Source of the DNA: a virus
IMG/VR virus record: IMGVR_UViG_3300046780_000604
Span: 1-38,572 of that record
Direction: 5' to 3' (one strand)
DNA: 38,572 nt
In this document: piece after piece, positions 1 to 38,572 of the stretch
Numbering within the stretch: position 1 is the stretch's first letter
Layout of the letters: each line of letters begins with the position of its first letter
The notes under the pieces: generated by a model
Database searches by the model: none
The model's input: the letters and a program-made list of their open reading frames with translations, nothing else
What the model was told of the DNA's origin: nothing
Position numbers and translations under genes: made by a program

Positions 1-57
1 TTGCACCTCCCTGCACGCGCACGTGCACGCGGCCGACCACGCGGTCGCGCACGCGGC
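1..57. repeat. Terminal direct repeat (matches 38516-38572)
   Basis: The first 57 bases match the last 57 with three differences, at window positions 12, 20 and 21. Positions 22-57 are identical. This supports a circular or circularly permuted map. Because both ends lie in a repeat array, the join may also be an assembly breakpoint with collapsed or missing cassettes. Confidence 0.8.
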
Positions 58-106
58 CGTACACGCGGTCGTACACGCGGTCGCTCACGCTACCGAGTCG
101 CGTCAC
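1..106 (-). CDS. Repeat cassette ORF 4 (cut by window start)
   Basis: Starts at GTG 106-104, which overlaps the stop of cassette 3 as GTGA. It encodes TRLGSV, then six tetrapeptides (SDRV, YDRV, YGRV, RDRV, VGRV, HVRV), then QGGA at the window edge. The near-identical copy at 38511-38572 shows how it would end (GGAT, TGA). VGRV uses GTC at site 1 and HVRV uses GTG at site 2; both are rare departures from the NRC GNC pattern. Function unknown. Confidence 0.6.
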   Translation of the reverse strand, partial: MTRLGSVSDRVYDRVYGRVRDRVVGRVHVRVQGGA

Positions 107-321
107 GTTGCACCTCCCTGCACGCGGTCGCCCACGCGGACGCCCACGCGGCCGTACACGCGGACGCCCACGCGGCCGTCCACGCGGCCGCCCACGCGGT
201 CGTACACGCGGCCGTACACGCGGCCGCCCACGCGGCCGTACACGCGGCCGCTCACGCGGCCGTACACGCGGGCGCGCACGCGGACGTACACGCGGCCGTA
301 CACGCTACCGAGTCGCGTCAC
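103..321 (-). CDS. Repeat cassette ORF 3
   Basis: 72 residues: a TRLGSV start, fifteen x-x-Arg-Val tetrapeptides and a QGGAT end. Site-1 residues are Y, R, S, G and D; site-2 residues are G, V, A and D. The GTG start sits about six bases after GGGAGG in the tail of cassette 2, and its first bases form a GTGA overlap with that cassette's stop. The product is very basic, with one Arg per four residues, and has no recognisable domain. Translation is inferred from the start, stop and ribosome-site architecture, not from homology. Confidence 0.6.
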   Translation of the reverse strand: MTRLGSVYGRVYVRVRARVYGRVSGRVYGRVGGRVYGRVYDRVGGRVDGRVGVRVYGRVGVRVGDRVQGGAT

Positions 322-524
322 GTTGCACCTCCCTGCACGCGGCCGCCCACGCGGCCGCCCACGCGGTCGCCCACGCGGTCGCCCACGCGGACGTGCACGC
401 GGCCGCCCACGCGGTCGCCCACGCGGTCGCCCACGCGGACGTGCACGCGGCCGTACACGCGGTCGCGCACGCGGACGTGCACGCGGTCGTCCACGCGGTC
501 GTACGCGCTACCGAGTCGCGTCAC
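318..524 (-). CDS. Repeat cassette ORF 2
   Basis: 68 residues: TRLGSA (Ala where most others have Val), fourteen tetrapeptides and QGGAT. It contains an internal higher-order duplication: the series HV, GD, GD, GG occurs twice in a row. It is the most Gly/Asp-rich member. The GTG start overlaps the cassette 1 stop as GTGA and is preceded by GGGAGG. Function unknown. Confidence 0.6.
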   Translation of the reverse strand: MTRLGSAYDRVDDRVHVRVRDRVYGRVHVRVGDRVGDRVGGRVHVRVGDRVGDRVGGRVGGRVQGGAT

Positions 525-715
525 GTTGCACCTCCCTGCACGCGGCCGTGCACGCGGACGCTCACGCGGACGTGCATGCGGTCGTGCACGCGGCCGTACA
601 CGCGGCCGTCCACGCGGACGCCCACGCGGACGCCCACGCGGACGCCCACGCGGCCGTACACGCGGCCGTACACGCGGCCGTACACGCGGGCGTACACGCT
701 ATCGAGTCGCCTCAT
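521..715 (-). CDS. Repeat cassette ORF 1 (first of the array)
   Basis: 64 residues from ATG 715-713: MRRLDSV, thirteen tetrapeptides, QGGAT. It starts inside the 3' end of the upstream gene (699-1166), whose TAG stop lies within the cassette start sequence. The last eight tetrapeptides (GV, GV, DG, YG, HD with Met replacing Val, HV, SV, HG) and the tail are the same as in the solitary cassette at 13423-13641, base for base over about 114 bases. That indicates recent copying between the two sites. Confidence 0.6.
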   Translation of the reverse strand: MRRLDSVYARVYGRVYGRVYGRVGVRVGVRVGVRVDGRVYGRVHDRMHVRVSVRVHGRVQGGAT

Positions 716-1166
716 TGGCTCTTCGTTGCCCATCGAGTAGCACCATGTCACACGATGCCTCTCCAGTCAACGGAATAATCCCCGCCTCCTCCAGCGCCGC
801 CATCAGCTCCGGCGGTCGCTCCCGTAGCAGCCCCACGAACGCCTCTCGCCGCACCTCCGGGCTCTGCTGTCCCCTCGTCGGCTCCGCGGCCACCGCCGGC
901 GCCACGGTCCGCGCCCATGCCGCCAGGAGCGCCGTAGCGCCCTGCAGCCGAGCGTGCGCCTCCTTCGGTCCCATCAGCTCACCGCTCTCCGGATGCCGCA
1001 TGGTCCGGAGCATGTGGACCGCCTCGAGCGCGCCGACCGTGAGCGCCGCCCGCACGTCTGCGTCCGTCACTGGTCCGAGGGCTCGGGAGGGGTCAGTCAC
1101 CAGACGCATTATGCCACACCGCGCAGCGTCGGCCAATGACGGCAAACTGTTAACTTTTGGATACAT
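699..1166 (-). CDS. Candidate terminase small subunit or late-operon protein
   Basis: 155 residues from ATG 1166, or 136 if the ATG at 1109 (MRLVTDPS) is the true start; neither has a clear Shine-Dalgarno sequence. The middle (about residues 35-95) is Ala/Leu-rich and predicted helical. No catalytic motif is visible. Its size, its place at the head of the late operon and its position upstream of the large terminase cluster suggest a small terminase, but this rests on order and not on similarity. The C-terminus (EATR, TAG) lies inside the first repeat cassette, so the native end may have been altered by it. Confidence 0.45.
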   Translation of the reverse strand: MYPKVNSLPSLADAARCGIMRLVTDPSRALGPVTDADVRAALTVGALEAVHMLRTMRHPESGELMGPKEAHARLQGATALLAAWARTVAPAVAAEPTRGQQSPEVRREAFVGLLRERPPELMAALEEAGIIPLTGEASCDMVLLDGQRRANEATR

Positions 1167-8319: not shown

Positions 8320-8555
8320 TTGCACCACTCCAGTTGAGCTGCCTCATGGCGCGTTTTTCGCCCCCCCCCGTTCACTCGGCGCTCCAGCTTTTTCAGCTCA
8401 CCATGCGCGTTTTCCGCTTCCGCCTTGAGCGCCTTCGTTCGCGCGGCGTCCGCAGTCGGATATTCCGCGAGCAAGCGCGCGTCCAGCCGTGCGACCTTGG
8501 CGCGCATCGCCCCGAAGTCGCGAACTAGAATCGCGCGCCGTTCCTCGCGCGTCAC
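8316..8555 (-). CDS. Small charged coiled-coil protein with a G9 tract
   Basis: 79 residues from GTG 8555, in GTGA overlap with the DUF6745-like gene. It is almost entirely helical and charged (TREERRAILVRDFGAMRAKV, then ADAARTKALKAEAENAHGEL), so a coiled coil is likely. A nine-base G tract on the coding strand (plus-strand C9 at 8361-8369) encodes the Gly triplet near the C-terminus; slippage there would alter the last 15 residues and uncouple the next gene. Confidence 0.6.
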   Translation of the reverse strand: MTREERRAILVRDFGAMRAKVARLDARLLAEYPTADAARTKALKAEAENAHGELKKLERRVNGGGRKTRHEAAQLEWCK

Positions 8556-9436
8556 GTTTCGATCCCATACGAGAGCGTCGGGTTCTTGTCGCAGTCGCTC
8601 GGCGTCGCGCCGCGGACCGCCTGCCACTTCCGCGCTCCCGCCGCGGTTTTCAGCTCTTCGTGAACGGGCTCCACATATTCGGGTTGCGCGCCATTCTGCA
8701 GTGCCGGGCTCTGCTTCTTGAGCCACTTCCCCGGGTCGGACCCCATGAGCTCGTACCGAAGCCCCGTAGCGTCGTCGGTCCAAGCGTCGAGCGGCTTCGC
8801 GCCGAGAATATCCGCAACCTTCCCCCAGCCGAGTTTTTCACCGAGCGCGCGACGGATCTCCGTATTCGTCTCGCTCTTGATCTCGTCCGCCGTGTAGCTC
8901 TCCGGGTTGAACACCAGCCGATCCGGCACCGCGGTGCCGTGCCAGTAGCAGAGCCCGGTCCCGTCGTGCCACTCGACGGCGAACCCGGTCGAATGATGAA
9001 GCTGCCCGTCATCGTCGCGCGCCATCACTCGAGGCAGCGCAATCACGAGCGCGCACTCGTCCAGGAGCACCGAGTCAAACGCCTGTTTGAGGTAGTCGCG
9101 GAGCAATAGCACCTCCGCAGCCTCCTCGTTCGTGAGCACCCCGGCGCGATGCCAAAAATCGTAGAACGCTACCCAGCCCGCATCCGACAGCCCGAGCCAA
9201 TCGAGCAATCGGTCAGTGGAGCCGGTGAGCTGCTCTTCCAGCGCGAACGCGGTAGCCGGCGAAGCGCAGATTTCGATCCGCTCCGGGCAGGGCTTGTCGT
9301 ACATCTTGTAGACCGCTTCCAGCCACGGGCGCACGCCTTCGCGCGTACACGTGCCGGGGTTGTCCAGAATCGCGAGATATTCCTCCGCCACGACGTCCTG
9401 GAGAGCTTCTTGTTCCGCGGTCAACGCTTCGAGCAT
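8552..9436 (-). CDS. DUF6745-like protein
   Basis: 294 residues, ATG 9436 with CGAGGAGAAAAAG upstream. The middle section has FAVEWHDGTGLCYWHGTAVP, then a P-x-x-Y/I-T region with an IKSETNTEIRRAL helix. This is the hallmark order of DUF6745 proteins found in actinobacteria, planctomycetes and some phages: a W.DG..YWHG strand pair, then an E..NAE.RR helix. No enzymatic role is established for the family. The N-terminal 100 residues are helical and resemble the repeat-like front part of the same family. It heads the coupled group down to 7626. Confidence 0.6.
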   Translation of the reverse strand: MLEALTAEQEALQDVVAEEYLAILDNPGTCTREGVRPWLEAVYKMYDKPCPERIEICASPATAFALEEQLTGSTDRLLDWLGLSDAGWVAFYDFWHRAGVLTNEEAAEVLLLRDYLKQAFDSVLLDECALVIALPRVMARDDDGQLHHSTGFAVEWHDGTGLCYWHGTAVPDRLVFNPESYTADEIKSETNTEIRRALGEKLGWGKVADILGAKPLDAWTDDATGLRYELMGSDPGKWLKKQSPALQNGAQPEYVEPVHEELKTAAGARKWQAVRGATPSDCDKNPTLSYGIET

Positions 9437-9504: not shown

Positions 9505-9801
9505 TCAGTCCTCGACGGCTCGGTCTTCAACGCCTCCGCGCTCGCGAAGCGGGTACACCTCGTAACTGCCGGGCTCCAACGTGATGGCCTTGTGGCGCCC
9601 CGCGTGCGTCACCTCGGTAGGCTCCCCCACCGAGAGGAACAGCGTGCGCCCATCGCGACGGTGCCCAACGAGCCCCACGACGGTGTGCGGGCCGGAGTCG
9701 CGACCGGACAGAACCAGGCCCGTGACGGGCTTGAGCTCACCCGGGACTGGACCCGAAAGCTTGTTGAAAACGAGATCGCCCTGACGTGCGTAGAGTTGCA
9801 T
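9505..9801 (-). CDS. Small beta-rich hypothetical protein
   Basis: 98 residues from ATG 9801 with AAAGGACCACA upstream. It begins MQLYARQGDLVFNKLSG and continues with a strand-rich body containing SGRDSGPHTVVG, a GHRRDGRTLFLSVGEPTEV segment, and an ending EVYPLRERG. It resembles short phage and bacterial hypothetical proteins with this layout, but I cannot name a family. A 68-base gap downstream (9437-9504) contains only the ribosome site of the next gene. Confidence 0.6.
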   Translation of the reverse strand: MQLYARQGDLVFNKLSGPVPGELKPVTGLVLSGRDSGPHTVVGLVGHRRDGRTLFLSVGEPTEVTHAGRHKAITLEPGSYEVYPLRERGGVEDRAVED

Positions 9802-9811
9802 TGTGGTCCTT

Positions 9812-10075
9812 TCAGAAACGGAGAGAGAGAACAGCGGAGGCCTCATCATCGAAGCCTCCGGAGCGTAGCGCGTCCGCGGTGTCGCGGATTGACTGGTCGA
9901 TATTCGCCCGGCGAAGCGTACGCGCCTTCGCGCGAGCGAGCAACGCCGCGTCGTTGTGGCGATTCACTAGCCGCCGCACTTCGGAGTCCGCAGCGGCGTG
10001 CAGGATCGGGCAATCATCGCTGATAATGGCCTCGCGACGGAGGCGATTCGCGGTGTCCAGGGCGCGGAGGTTCAC
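9812..10075 (-). CDS. Small helical hypothetical protein
   Basis: 87 residues from GTG 10075 (GTGA overlap with the previous gene), chosen over the longer frame to 10102. It is Ala/Arg/Leu-rich and mostly helical (ALDTANRLRREAIISDDCPI, then EVRRLVNRHNDAALLARAKA). It has one Cys and no catalytic motif. Unknown function; third gene from the leftward early promoter. Confidence 0.55.
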   Translation of the reverse strand: MNLRALDTANRLRREAIISDDCPILHAAADSEVRRLVNRHNDAALLARAKARTLRRANIDQSIRDTADALRSGGFDDEASAVLSLRF

Positions 10076-10877: not shown

Positions 10878-12323
10878 ATGTCAAAATCATTGCTATTAAT
10901 CGACATTTCCGGCATTTTCTGGGCCGCATGGCACGCCACCGTAGCGCTCCCGACCGGAGGCGAGGCATATGCGATTGCCGTCGCTTCCCCCGGAGCCCTC
11001 CGGTGCGACGAGTACGACCACGTTGCGATCTGCTGCGACGCCTCGCCCTACACCCGCCGCAAGGCCCTGCTGCCCACGTACAAGGCGCAGCGTGATGCGC
11101 CGCCCGCGGCGGCGCTCGACCAGTTCCGCCGCGTCAAGGAGCGTCTGGTCGCAGATGGACACCTCCTCTGGTCCGTGCCGGGTGAGGAGGCCGACGACGT
11201 CATCGCGACGGCCGTGGAGTTCGCCAAGCGCGACGGGATGAGCGTTACGATCGCGAGCTCGGACAAGGATTTGCTCCAGCTCGTGGACGATGAGAACGAC
11301 ATTCGCGTTTTCTCGCCGTCGAAACAGAAGACCTTCGATCGTGCGGGCGTTATCGAAACCTGGGGCGTGCCGCCCGAGATGCTACTCGACGCCCTGGCGC
11401 TCCAAGGTGATACCTCGGACAACGTTCCGGGCATCCCGGGAGTGGGTAAGAAGAACGCCGCGAAGCTGCTTACCGAGTACGGCGGCACGCTGGACGCAGT
11501 GCTCGGCAACTGCGACAAGATTCCGACACCGAAGATGCAAGAGAACGTGTTTCAGGGTGCCGCGGCCGCGCGGCTCGCGAAACAGGTGATCGAGCTTCGG
11601 CGCGACTGCCCGATCCGGTGGGAAGAACTGTTCGAAAAGAGAGAGGTAAAGCCAGTGAGCGAAGCAACACCAGCGATTCAAGACGGCGAATTCGATCCGA
11701 TTTCTCTGCCGCCCCCGAAGAGCGAGCCGAGCGCGGAGGCGCCCGTCGCGACTCCCGTCATGCAGGCGCCGAAGTCCACGGCGCTCGCGCTTGCGCCGGT
11801 CGAATGGGCGCAGGCCCTGGAGCCGCGCACGCTCGCATCGGCGCAGACGTTCGCGATTGCCGTGGCGAATTCGCGGCTATACCCGCGCATCTCGAACCCG
11901 GACGCCGCGCTCGTGGTCATCGTGCGGGGTCGCTCGATCGGGCTTGGCGCGATTCAGGCGCTCGACGTGATCCACTATTTCGACGGCAAGACTGCGCTCC
12001 ATGCGCATCTCATCACGGAGATGGTGACGCGGCACCCGGACTGCGAGTGGTTCCGCTACATCGCGGGGGATAACACCTTTGCCGAGTACCACACGAAGCA
12101 GCGCGGGAACGAGACTCCGGTCAAGTTGCGCTACACCATCGAGCAGGCGGAGCGCGCCGGGCTGCTGGCGACGAAGCCGGGGAAGGAGCCCGGAAACTGG
12201 CACAAACGACCGGACGAAATGCTGCGGAAGACCTGCGCGGTGCAGCTCGGCCGCATCGTGTATCCGGGTGCCGCGCTCGGGTTGTACGCGCTCGAAGAGC
12301 TCGGGGCGGAGGCGGGAGAATGA
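10878..12323 (+). CDS. Fused FEN/PolA-type 5'-3' exonuclease and RecT-like annealing protein
   Basis: 481 residues, ATG 10878 with GAGGAACC upstream. Residues 1-255 are a 5'-nuclease: LLLIDISG with Asp 9, CCDASPYTRRKALLPTYKAQ with Asp 54, EEADD at 103-107, SSDKD at 127-131, and QGDTSDNVPGIPGVGKKNAA at 176-195, the helix-three-turn-helix with Asp 178 and 181. A Pro/Ala linker (258-315) follows. Residues about 318-476 resemble RecT-family single-strand annealing proteins: AVANSRLYPRISNPDAALVV, IQALDVIHYFDGKTALHAHL, then MLRKTCAVQLGRIVYPG and GLYALEEL. It should resect double-strand ends and anneal the exposed strand in one polypeptide. Normally these are separate genes. Confidence 0.85.
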   Translation: MSKSLLLIDISGIFWAAWHATVALPTGGEAYAIAVASPGALRCDEYDHVAICCDASPYTRRKALLPTYKAQRDAPPAAALDQFRRVKERLVADGHLLWSVPGEEADDVIATAVEFAKRDGMSVTIASSDKDLLQLVDDENDIRVFSPSKQKTFDRAGVIETWGVPPEMLLDALALQGDTSDNVPGIPGVGKKNAAKLLTEYGGTLDAVLGNCDKIPTPKMQENVFQGAAAARLAKQVIELRRDCPIRWEELFEKREVKPVSEATPAIQDGEFDPISLPPPKSEPSAEAPVATPVMQAPKSTALALAPVEWAQALEPRTLASAQTFAIAVANSRLYPRISNPDAALVVIVRGRSIGLGAIQALDVIHYFDGKTALHAHLITEMVTRHPDCEWFRYIAGDNTFAEYHTKQRGNETPVKLRYTIEQAERAGLLATKPGKEPGNWHKRPDEMLRKTCAVQLGRIVYPGAALGLYALEELGAEAGE

Positions 12324-12550: not shown

Positions 12551-12900
12551 ACCTAAACCAGATGGCTGCGGACATTCACGAAAACGCGAAGAGCAAGGGA
12601 TTTTACGATGAGCCACCGAGTTTCATGGACAGGATCGCGCTAATGCATTCGGAGCTATCAGAGGCCGTGGAAGAGTTCCGAGATGGCCATGCCCCGAGCG
12701 ACGAACGGTATAGCGCGCCACGTGACAGCGGAGGCGTCGGGGCGGGCAAGCCAGAGGGCATCCCGAGCGAGTTTGCGGACGTTATCATCCGCGTGCTCGA
12801 CGCCTGCGCGTACTACGGGATCGATATCGAACGCGCGGTCACCGAAAAGCACGAATACAACAAGACGCGACCGGTGAAGCACGGGAGAGCCCGGCTATGA
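12547..12900 (+). CDS. MazG-like nucleotide pyrophosphohydrolase
   Basis: 117 residues from ATG 12547 (ATGA overlap). It has the all-alpha NTP-PPase metal motif: HSELSEAVEEFRDG with Glu 36 and Glu 39/40, then EFADVIIRVLDACAYYGIDI with Glu 75 and Asp 78, and a final KHEYNKTRPVKHG helix as in MazG-related phage proteins. The fold hydrolyses nucleoside triphosphates to monophosphates. Phages use such enzymes to alter nucleotide or alarmone pools. A Gly/Pro-rich insert lies at about 50-72. Confidence 0.8.
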   Translation: MNLNQMAADIHENAKSKGFYDEPPSFMDRIALMHSELSEAVEEFRDGHAPSDERYSAPRDSGGVGAGKPEGIPSEFADVIIRVLDACAYYGIDIERAVTEKHEYNKTRPVKHGRARL

Positions 12901-13439
12901 CGCGCGACGAATTCATCCGTCTTTCGACAACTGAGCAGCTCACCGCAATTTGGGGACTGCTCCAGGAGCGTGGCAGCATTCCGATCAGCGGTCCGCCCGC
13001 GCCAGTCGCGACGGGCGCCGGTGACGGCCGGGCGCCGCGTTTCGACACGATGATTTTCCGCACCGGCGGGATGGTGCAATACGCCTCGGAGACGGACCTG
13101 AGCGGCCTGATTTTCTGGCGCGACCGCAGCGCGCAGCCGCCAAGCGATCCGAAGTATGCCGAGAGCAACGCCAAGATGGTAAAGGCGCTGGACTACTGGA
13201 TCGCGTACCGCCAGGCGTGCCCCACGGCGCAGTGGGTGGGTCAACGGAATCACGAGGCGGTCACCGCTAAGCCGCCGAGCGACAAGCCAGAGACCTACCT
13301 GCGCGGAGCGCCCACTGCGGCGCCGAGCGCGCCGACCCCACCGCTGGAAGACGACGATATCCCATTTGCCTGGAACGTGACGAGCGAAGTGGATGAGCGA
13401 TGGATAATCGCGCGCAGGGAACGTGACGCGACTCGGTAG
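12897..13439 (+). CDS. SSB-tail-like protein with displaced acidic motif
   Basis: 180 residues, ATGA overlap with the MazG-like gene. After a mixed N-terminal region and a Pro/Ala-rich linker (RGAPTAAPSAPTPP) it carries LEDDDIPF, the acidic tip that ends bacterial single-strand-binding proteins and recruits their partners. Here it is internal: about 23 more residues follow, ending RERDATR. The final codons and TAG stop lie within the start motif of the repeat cassette at 13423. No clear OB-fold is evident, so SSB is a suggestion from the tail and from its neighbours in a recombination operon. Confidence 0.55.
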   Translation: MTRDEFIRLSTTEQLTAIWGLLQERGSIPISGPPAPVATGAGDGRAPRFDTMIFRTGGMVQYASETDLSGLIFWRDRSAQPPSDPKYAESNAKMVKALDYWIAYRQACPTAQWVGQRNHEAVTAKPPSDKPETYLRGAPTAAPSAPTPPLEDDDIPFAWNVTSEVDERWIIARRERDATR

Positions 13440-13641
13440 CGTGTACGGCCGCGTGTACGGCCGCGTGTACGGCCGCGTGGACGGCCGCGTGTACGTCCGC
13501 GTGGGCGACCGCGTGTACGGCCGCGTGGGCGTCCGCGTGGGCGTCCGCGTGGACGGCCGCGTGTACGGCCGCGTGCACGACCGCATGCACGTCCGCGTGA
13601 GCGTCCGCGTGCACGGCCGCGTGCAGGGAGGTGCAACGTGA
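13423..13641 (+). CDS. Solitary repeat cassette ORF 8
   Basis: 72 residues: GTG start, TRLGSV, fifteen x-x-Arg-Val tetrapeptides (YG three times, DG, YV, GD, YG, GV, GV, DG, YG, HD with Met, HV, SV, HG) and QGGAT. It begins 17 bases before the end of the upstream gene. The bases ahead of its start (GCAGGGAACGTGACG) are a shortened version of the usual ribosome site. It lies in the opposite map orientation to the main array, but in both places it is read in the direction of the host operon. Bases 13528-13641 are identical to 634-521. Confidence 0.6.
   Translation: MTRLGSVYGRVYGRVYGRVDGRVYVRVGDRVYGRVGVRVGVRVDGRVYGRVHDRMHVRVSVRVHGRVQGGAT
13423..13641 (+). repeat. 12-base tandem repeats of the solitary cassette
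   Basis: Fifteen units of TAC GGC CGC GTG type. Only the first two bases of codon 1 and the middle base of codon 2 vary, apart from one GTG to ATG change. The same rare ATG variant occurs in cassette 1 of the main array. Confidence 0.95.
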
Positions 13642-36844: not shown

Positions 36845-37098
36845 GCTGCCTGGCGCTTTCGCTTCCGATCGTTGCGTGCGACCCGCAGCGCCTTCGCCCG
36901 CGGCAGCGAGTCGTCCAGCAACGCGGCCGGGTGAACAGCGCGACGTTTCGGCTTTCGCGGAGTCGGCACCGGACGACCTTGCGCGACCCACCGGCCCTTC
37001 CCCGGCTGAATTGCGCGCAGCGCCAGCGTGAGCGGACGCCGCGTTCCGGGGTTCATGCCTGCAGTCCCGCAAACGCGAGTGAAAATCGGATGCAACAT
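36841..37098 (-). CDS. Small strongly basic protein
   Basis: 85 residues from ATG 37098 (TGATG overlap with the GroES-like gene). Lys/Arg-rich, especially PTPRKPKRRAVHP and the final RNDRKRKRQAA; one Cys. Probably nucleic-acid binding by charge alone. It ends in an ATGA overlap. No family recognised. Confidence 0.5.
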   Translation of the reverse strand: MLHPIFTRVCGTAGMNPGTRRPLTLALRAIQPGKGRWVAQGRPVPTPRKPKRRAVHPAALLDDSLPRAKALRVARNDRKRKRQAA

Positions 37099-37529
37099 CA
37101 GTCCTCCTGAACCAGCGGAATGTTTTTCTGCCGGATGATCCGGTGCTCCACGTCGTCCAGCATGCACGAGTCCCCCGCCTGCGCCATGTCCACCAGGACG
37201 CGCGCGCCCGGCTTGATTGCGACGTCCATGGGCTGCCACACTCCATATTCGTCGTGATGCCCCGGCCCCGCGGCAACCACGGTGCCCCAGGTCGCTTCCA
37301 CCGTCTCGGGCTTGCGCGCCTGCGCCGGGATGAAGATGCCGCCCGCAGACGTCACATCCTGGCGCTGGTCACGGAGCCAGTCCAGGCATACGAGCACGTT
37401 GTCCGCGAACATGCGTTCGCCGGGGCGACGGGGATCGAAGCCCTCGTGGGGCGCATCTACGATCGGTGGAGCCCCAACACCGGAGCGGTATTCGTCGCGT
37501 TTCTTGGCAATCTCAGCACTTCTCATCAC
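37098..37529 (-). CDS. GroES-like co-chaperonin
   Basis: 143 residues from GTG 37529, or the adjacent ATG. A helical N-terminus of about 40 residues precedes a Cpn10 fold: DNVLVCLDWLRDQRQDVTSA, GGIFIPAQARKPETVEATWG (mobile loop with the G-G-I-hydrophobic-hydrophobic-P contact), TVVAAGPG, then PMDVAIKPGARVLVDMAQAG and an ending V-E-H-R-I-I-x-x-K-N-I as in GroES. Phages such as T4 (gp31) encode such proteins to fold their capsid protein through host GroEL. The fit is by pattern order. Here it lies in the late operon upstream of terminase. Confidence 0.72.
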   Translation of the reverse strand: MMRSAEIAKKRDEYRSGVGAPPIVDAPHEGFDPRRPGERMFADNVLVCLDWLRDQRQDVTSAGGIFIPAQARKPETVEATWGTVVAAGPGHHDEYGVWQPMDVAIKPGARVLVDMAQAGDSCMLDDVEHRIIRQKNIPLVQED

Positions 37530-37816
37530 GCTACGTCGCTCCCCGTCATCCAGTTCGCCGAATCCGCGGCCTTCGTCGGCTCGCCCTTGCTGTCGTCGAT
37601 TCGACCGTAAGAGCCGTCGCCCCAGAACACGAAGCGGCCCGGCGACACGGTGCCATCACGCTGCGGCACATTCTGATCTAGCGTTACAATGACACCGATC
37701 CCCTTGACCACTTCGATGGTGTTCACCCCGCGAGCGCCCGCGTGGAAAGAGTGGTGGCTTCCGCTGATCCACTCGTCCTGGATCGGTTTCAGTGGCACAA
37801 ATCTGCTGAGTTTCAT
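37526..37816 (-). CDS. Hypothetical late protein
   Basis: 96 residues from ATG 37816 (ATGA overlap). Beta-rich: SRFVPLKPIQDEWISGSHHS, IEVVKGIGVIVTLDQNVPQR, then a WGDGSYGRIDDSKGEP loop and GTGA coupling to the GroES-like gene. It looks like a compact beta-barrel, but no family is named. Confidence 0.55.
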   Translation of the reverse strand: MKLSRFVPLKPIQDEWISGSHHSFHAGARGVNTIEVVKGIGVIVTLDQNVPQRDGTVSPGRFVFWGDGSYGRIDDSKGEPTKAADSANWMTGSDVA

Positions 37817-37989
37817 TTCGTTTTTTGCTCCTGTGTGAGTAGCCCGCGTTCCCGGAGGATGCGCCGAATTCTGTCGCCCACTATGCCGCGCACATCCTCG
37901 CCGCGCAACTGTCGCGCCATGCTGCGCACGTCGCACTCGGCCTCGAGTGCCAGGCGCCGAAGCTCTAGAGAGTCCATGAGTCGCGTCAC
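37813..37989 (-). CDS. Small helical protein started by the repeat array
   Basis: 58 residues from GTG 37989, which sits in the cassette-type start motif (GGGAGG, GTG ACG CGA CTC) and overlaps the stop of cassette 7; or 54 residues from ATG 37977 four codons later. The body (DSLELRRLALEAECDVRSMA, then RIRRILRERGLLTQEQ) is an ordinary charged helical protein unlike the cassettes. So the last cassette hands over its ribosome site and start to a normal late gene. ATGA overlap with the next gene. Confidence 0.6.
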   Translation of the reverse strand: MTRLMDSLELRRLALEAECDVRSMARQLRGEDVRGIVGDRIRRILRERGLLTQEQKTK

Positions 37990-38180
37990 GTTGCACCTCC
38001 CTGCACGCGGACGCGCACGCGGTCGTACACGCGGCCGTACACGCGGTCGTACACGCGGTCGTACACGCGGTCGTCCACGCGGTCGTCCACGCGGCCGTCC
38101 ACGCGGACGCGCACGCGGTGGTACACGCGGCCGTACACGCGGCCGCCTACGCGGACGTACACGCTACCGAGCCGCATCAC
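37986..38180 (-). CDS. Repeat cassette ORF 7 (last of the array)
   Basis: Begins GTG ATG CGG CTC, a variant of the usual GTG ACG CGA CTC, then GSV and thirteen tetrapeptides (YV, GG, YG, YH, RV, DG, DD, DD, YD, YD, YG, YD, RV) and QGGAT. The only His at site 2 (CAC instead of GNC) of all 98 units is here. Its stop overlaps the start of the normal gene at 37989. Confidence 0.6.
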   Translation of the reverse strand: MMRLGSVYVRVGGRVYGRVYHRVRVRVDGRVDDRVDDRVYDRVYDRVYGRVYDRVRVRVQGGAT

Positions 38181-38323
38181 GTTGCACCTCCCTGCACGCG
38201 GCCGCCCACGCGGACGTCCACGCGGTCGCACACGCGGCCGCGCACGCGGCCGTACACGCGGTCGCACACGCGGACGCCCACGCGGCCGTACACGCGGTCG
38301 CTCACGCTACCGAGTCGCGTCAC
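38177..38323 (-). CDS. Repeat cassette ORF 6
   Basis: 48 residues: TRLGSV, nine tetrapeptides (SD, YG, GV, CD, YG, RG, CD, DV, GG), QGGAT. The shortest complete cassette. Cys at site 1 occurs only in cassettes 5 and 6. The GTG start has GGGAGG upstream and a GTGA overlap. Confidence 0.6.
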   Translation of the reverse strand: MTRLGSVSDRVYGRVGVRVCDRVYGRVRGRVCDRVDVRVGGRVQGGAT

Positions 38324-38514
38324 GTTGCACCTCCCTGCACGCGGTCGTACACGCGGACGCCCACGCGGCCGTACACGCGGACGCCCACGCGGCCGCGCAC
38401 GCGGTCGCACACGCGGTCGTACACGCGGACGTACACGCGGACGCGCACGCGGTCGTCCACGCGGCCGTACACGCGGTCGCACACGCGGCCGTACGCGCTA
38501 CCGAGTCGCGTCAC
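38320..38514 (-). CDS. Repeat cassette ORF 5
   Basis: 64 residues: TRLGSA, thirteen tetrapeptides (YG, CD, YG, DD, RV, YV, YD, CD, RG, GV, YG, GV, YD), QGGAT. GTG start at 38514 overlaps the stop at 38513-38511 of the partial cassette beyond it, preceded by GGGAGG. Confidence 0.6.
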   Translation of the reverse strand: MTRLGSAYGRVCDRVYGRVDDRVRVRVYVRVYDRVCDRVRGRVGVRVYGRVGVRVYDRVQGGAT

Positions 38515-38572
38515 GTTGCACCTCCCCGCACGCGGTCGTGCACGCGGCCGACCACGCGGTCGCGCACGCGGC
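38511..38572 (-). CDS. 3' end of a repeat cassette, variant of cassette 4
   Basis: Encodes RV, RDRV, VGRV, HDRV, then RGGAT and TGA. Cassette 4 at the window start reads RDRV, VGRV, HVRV, QGGA over the same bases. The two therefore differ in a hypervariable base and in Q versus R. They may be one cassette with population variation or two related cassettes. Confidence 0.55.
   Translation of the reverse strand, partial: RVRDRVVGRVHDRVRGGAT

Follow-up and report, generated by a model that had tools for sequence, protein, structure and literature searches.

A train of putative hypervariable tetrapeptide-repeat cassettes in a phage genome and its tie to the uncharacterized DUF6745 module

The IMG/VR virus record IMGVR_UViG_3300046780_000604 (38,572 nucleotides, analysed whole and hereafter called the window) carries small cassettes of a 12-base repeat: seven in a train on the minus strand (1–715 joined to 37986–38572) and one, the solo cassette, on the plus strand (13423–13641). 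From sequence, we classify these cassettes as a translationally coupled, stand-alone form of hypervariable tandem-repeat proteins, tied to the uncharacterized DUF6745 (PF20530) module. On balance, we think it probable that they serve a DUF6745 system as its stand-alone, diversified repeat module, with variation due to selection and to the recombination of both units and cassettes. The original prediction of a possible new diversification system survives in part. The cassettes do have the look of diversified coding units, and other phages contain cassettes of the same arrangement. They are not an isolated invention, being the apparent stand-alone form of an array that occurs inside or beside phage DUF6745 proteins; a dedicated machine is unsupported, as no reverse transcriptase was found in the records searched and recombination, unit turnover and selection on two residues would suffice.

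All cassettes share one design, borne out when coordinates, translations, start modules and end modules were checked. Each begins with a start module, [V/M]-[T/M/R]-R-L-[G/D]-S, continues with 6–15 units of the form GTG NNC GNC CGC (Val-x-x-Arg, first described as x-x-Arg-Val) and closes with the end module GTG CAG GGA GGT GCA ACG TGA. The ribosome-binding site of the next cassette sits in this end module, and the stop codon TGA overlaps with the GTG at which that cassette starts. At six of the seven train starts, as at the gene after the train, the sequence is CAGGGAGGTGCAAC-GTGA or differs from it by one base; the first cassette (C1) and the solo cassette differ. Junction sequences predict a ribosome-binding site and a start at each cassette. 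Tandem-repeat scores reach 900 and a 26-base junction pattern (≤3 mismatches) has 8 copies, compared with 0 for a reversed-pattern control, so the cassettes are not a chance match.

In the train, all on the minus strand, C1 (521..715; 64 amino acids (aa)) consists of MRRLDSV, units and QGGAT; it was delimited by translation and start context, and its start at 715 is a judgement, as longer frames exist. C2 (318..524; 68 aa) has GGGAGGT upstream and a GTGA overlapping the C1 stop, and is followed by C3 (103..321; 72 aa). C4 is interrupted by the contig seam, with its first part at 1..106 and its last part at 38511..38572. The ends of the window overlap by 57 bases with 3 mismatches (1–57 and 38516–38572); C4 is therefore read at both ends and its sequence is reliable only in part. 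A contig from another data set (L009) spans the seam, and the circular join is therefore correct. C5 (38320..38514; 64 aa), C6 (38177..38323; 48 aa) and C7 (37986..38180; 64 aa) complete the train.

The hand tally of 98 units made in the original prediction proved exact: site 1 is Tyr 37, Gly 23, Asp 10, His 10, Arg 8, Ser 5, Cys 4 and Val 1, and site 2 is Gly 41, Asp 28, Val 26, Ala 2 and His 1. The statement that no two cassettes have the same series is literally true, but C1 and the solo cassette (13423..13641, plus strand; 72 aa) are diverged copies. They match at 94% over 189 base pairs (bp), their unit edit distance is 5 (at least 7 for shuffled unit order), and they differ through unit loss and substitution.

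A search of other phages for repeat cassettes found at least nine that have stand-alone cassettes built to the same design but differing in sequence. Exact DNA scans identified a different phage (G003) with an analogous train of ATGAAGCAGCTAGGC, units and GTTAGGAGGCTGCAATGA. Wider patterns found trains or single cassettes in G004 (two trains), G005, G006, G007, G008, G010, G011 and G012, the last with about 15 cassettes, many of the form MIDPG[PE]CV...EEES. A 150-kilobase (kb) virus (L150) has a train at a G+C content of 0.44–0.51 that uses other codons (MKDIISNSV...KEYKF). Start and end modules vary between phages, and the junctions inspected have a purine-rich stretch resembling a ribosome-binding site before a start at or near the stop. 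The genome position of the array also varies: next to DUF6745, recombination or helicase genes. Many loose matches to an R-V pattern were RVRVRV-type repeats and were set aside; bacterial matches to the narrow DNA pattern are homogeneous minisatellites or chance. A tblastn search with cassette-like proteins gave no match, probably owing to the low-complexity filter. Another period-12 coding array, A-[A/S]-x-V, variable at 1–2 codons, occurs in L060 (500–1000, minus strand), L063 (500–1000, plus strand) and L032, and is possibly of a related kind.

The array also occurs inside larger proteins. A Ser-Val pattern matches 106 viral stretches, and 34 of the 83 longer array frames have a DUF6745 signature. 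In those 34 frames the array follows an N-terminal part (WCGSPLSQGLTRAI) and precedes the DUF6745 domain (YGQHDANWLAFYDYF); Pfam confirmed PF20530 in all four array–DUF6745 proteins scanned. Embedded arrays in phage DUF6745 proteins use SV, QL or SL scaffolds. Two deposited phages have Gln-Leu (the Mycobacterium prophage prophiGD102-1, whose array is of the embedded type) and Ser-Leu (MW202476) with similar variable residues, and the tetrapeptide period is kept across these different scaffolds at G+C contents of 0.39–0.79. Many phage DUF6745 proteins thus have a period-4 array before the domain, and array-less members adjoin stand-alone cassettes. By contrast, the window cassettes are separate, coupled mini-genes without the domain, and cassette proteins have no match to the PF20530 profile. 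A second host protein of the Ser-Val array, without DUF6745, has the layout MCxFFS...LLKxW-array-AYTGSFF; a simple motif finds it in 11 frames (listed in L146, L147, L186, L193, L197, L203, L205, L221, L242 and L246), and the one member scanned has no Pfam match.

PF20530 was detected in 9 of 14 array records, a small set hand-picked from the matches and not selected by DUF6745, compared with 0 of 24 unrelated viral control records (Fisher p 1.2e-5). Three phages (G003, G005 and G010) share the order small partner, array-less DUF6745 and cassettes; in each, the start of the first cassette overlaps or abuts the stop of DUF6745. G012 has a short gap between DUF6745 and the cassettes that come after it, and G008 has the array gene ahead of DUF6745. 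The window encodes an array-less DUF6745 protein (8552..9436, minus strand; 294 aa; PF20530 E 6.4e-13) and a small partner of the QGDL... family (9505..9849, minus strand; 114 aa; no Pfam match). These are 51% and 50% identical, respectively, to their G005 counterparts, whereas TerL is 24% identical and the portal and head proteins have no match. A pair common to phages with such different cores suggests that the DUF6745 module probably moves between phages.

Bacterial DUF6745 members (Streptomyces and Deinococcus) lack the array and lie beside STM4011–STM4015 genes. In two bacterial loci (L265 and L266), DUF6745 and partner pairs adjoin STM4011–STM4015 radical SAM and related genes. By eye, the Deinococcus protein has a leucine-rich-looking stretch where the array would be; this stretch has no Pfam repeat match.

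The pattern of variation points to the protein. Across 151 arrays and 2842 units, with deviation measured from the array majority, codon 1 deviates in 52% of units at base 1 and 12% at base 2, codon 2 in 38% at base 2, and third bases in 2–6%. Third bases in the window deviate in 2 of 392 cases, and 97 of its 98 units have a purine at the second base of site 1, giving polar residues, Gly or Cys. This codon-position bias, together with the polar residues of site 1, suggests that selection acts on the protein; the uniformity of synonymous bases implies that units are homogenized or recent.

Arrays also differ between close relatives, in comparisons that all rest on assembled contigs; repeat assembly from metagenomes is the main caveat. 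Exact DNA scans showed that two contigs from another data set (L009 and L010) derive from the same phage as the window. L009 differs from the window at 5 bases in 7011, all within the array. Two of the five belong to the seam cassette and two of them are adjacent, so a conservative count is 2 to 4 events (chance 0.009 to 0.00009). Two other contigs (L163 and L180) are about 98–99% identical outside the array, yet are 12 unit edits apart in 18. In both pairs, array changes outnumber flank changes.

We propose that each cassette encodes a small hypervariable repeat protein and represents the trans form of the tetrapeptide array that many phages have inside a DUF6745 protein. Each array combines two variable residues per unit with a fixed polar–hydrophobic pair, which is Arg-Val in the window and Ser-Val, Gln-Leu or Ser-Leu in other arrays. 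Since every end module supplies the ribosome-binding site for the cassette after it, one train could yield several variants from a single transcript. Recombination may create diversity by adding, removing and reordering units or entire cassettes, possibly aided by the phage exonuclease/RecT, while selection would maintain variety and a mostly polar character at sites 1 and 2, and third codon bases would stay uniform. Within the DUF6745 system, the product would most likely provide variable recognition of a changing host partner. Close to the array or module, the window and G003 have an exonuclease/RecT and G008 has Sak4-like and single-strand-binding-protein-like genes, all of them annealing or recombination genes; G004 and G010 have helicases there. 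Phages commonly carry genes of these kinds, which makes their nearness to arrays weak evidence. More tentatively, this may be a retroelement-free form of phage diversification, in which trains of translationally coupled mini-genes provide a set of repeat proteins, differing at two of every four residues, as exchangeable recognition subunits of a DUF6745 complex that are rearranged by recombination.

Several observations limit this proposal or weigh against it. Both the translation of the cassettes and binding by their products are inferred here. Open frames alone prove nothing, since every cassette is also open in its three reverse frames. The cassettes of the window lie away from its DUF6745–partner pair, whereas cassettes adjoin DUF6745 in G003, G005, G010, G012 and G008; 5 of the 14 array records, including G004 with its two trains, have no PF20530 match. 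Low synonymous variation also fits recent expansion of a DNA repeat, and two pairs of contigs (L202/L247 and L205/L238) are identical throughout, arrays included. Structural models also do not fold the array confidently. In the DUF6745 model the flanks are confident and the array is modelled as unstructured; AlphaFold gave a single low-confidence helix for a cassette, which was not used.

The unstructured model, the uniform synonymous bases within a phage and the homogeneous repeats that match the same DNA pattern in some bacterial genomes would all suit a selfish or neutral 12-base minisatellite. Such a repeat would spread by slippage and recombination with no protein function, its trains would be tandem gene duplications, and it would be tolerated, as gaining or losing units of 12 bases preserves the reading frame. 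We nonetheless consider this explanation unlikely, because arrays repeatedly vary at the non-synonymous bases of codons 1 and 2, in favour of polar residues, the tetrapeptide period persists across scaffolds and over that range of G+C contents (0.39–0.79), and the arrays are strongly tied to one protein family.

It is still less probable that the arrays are DNA-level sites, that is, 12-base binding-site arrays for packaging, partition or replication whose translation is accidental. The train of the window does lie upstream of packaging and head genes, and the units of any one phage share a conserved base skeleton, but arrays change genome position between phages, are embedded in frames of a known domain, and have ribosome-binding sites and overlapping starts at cassette ends.

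We give slightly less credence again to the idea that short-read assembly of repeats created the trains, or the variation in them, as an artefact. Arrays are a frequent end point of contigs, the frame of one array (L168) is broken, and the seam of the window has its 3 mismatches in 57 bases. Furthermore, G012 (L128–L130; 13500–23562) and G040 (L269–L270; near 20437) are near-identical over about 29 kb, except that G040 lacks about 10 kb between two cassette trains, DUF6745 included, with the junction inside the trains; this difference reflects either train-to-train recombination or an assembly jump. Against an artefact, L010 is the same as the window over the 10,084 bp compared, solo cassette included, L009 agrees over C5–C7 and part of C4 except for the 5 bases, and the array is also present in deposited phage records (MW584211 and MW202476).

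Least probable of all is variation written by a diversity-generating retroelement or similar targeted mutagenesis. The localized non-synonymous variation in a phage gene resembles that of such elements, including units of the NNC form typical of their variable codons, and the invariant bases of the window unit include no A. We reject it because no reverse transcriptase (PF00078) was found in ten records (G000–G009) by a search that had positive controls, A is retained in the invariant AGC codon of Ser-Val arrays, and variation runs through long tandem arrays whose unit number changes.

The cassettes match no known family in profile searches, as originally predicted. Matches to Bactofilin, GvpQ and MSCRAMM were weak, below the cut-off and apparently compositional. 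A match of S-x-T-A-S repeats to the Protein Data Bank (PDB) entry ‘TLP-4’ (9ikm) is compositional. The DUF6745 model had no fold match in the PDB at E ≤ 0.001, and in a viral library matched only DUF6745 or unnamed proteins. Literature searches, which included residue strings and DUF6745 and did not cover preprints, found no description, nor any paper on ‘variable codon tandem repeats’, a term that may be in use. Phase-variable contingency repeats also change length within coding sequence, but the 12-base unit keeps the reading frame in all cassettes, so that sequence and length change rather than an on/off state, and neighbouring units differ at two set residues. Transcription activator-like effector (TALE)-type repeats pair variable residues on a repeat scaffold of about 34 residues per unit. 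The cassettes also have two variable residues per unit, on a scaffold of four residues, and DNA reading is unsupported here.

Around the train, a frame of 155 aa (699..1166, minus strand; no PHROG or Pfam match) terminates inside the C1 start module. On the other side, the last junction begins a 58-aa frame (37813..37989, minus strand) with the same GTGACGCGACTC module (VTRL-MDSLELRR...), which precedes a GroES-like co-chaperonin gene (37098–37529, minus strand; phrog_3188, E 1.2e-7) just before the packaging genes and the terminase–portal–head block. On the plus strand, an exonuclease/RecT-like fusion (10878..12323; phrog_107 and phrog_4171) and a 180-aa frame (12897–13439) lie before the solo cassette. 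The latter contains EDDDIPF, which resembles the acidic tip of single-strand-binding proteins, and continues for about 25 residues past it into the cassette start.

An uncharacterized domain of phages and bacteria, DUF6745, is now linked to hypervariable tetrapeptide arrays at about a hundred viral loci, in two arrangements: within the DUF6745 protein or in coupled mini-genes of their own. Should the products be made and have a binding partner, they would represent a phage route to a diversified recognition surface without reverse transcriptase, and their target would point to an unknown conflict between host and phage.
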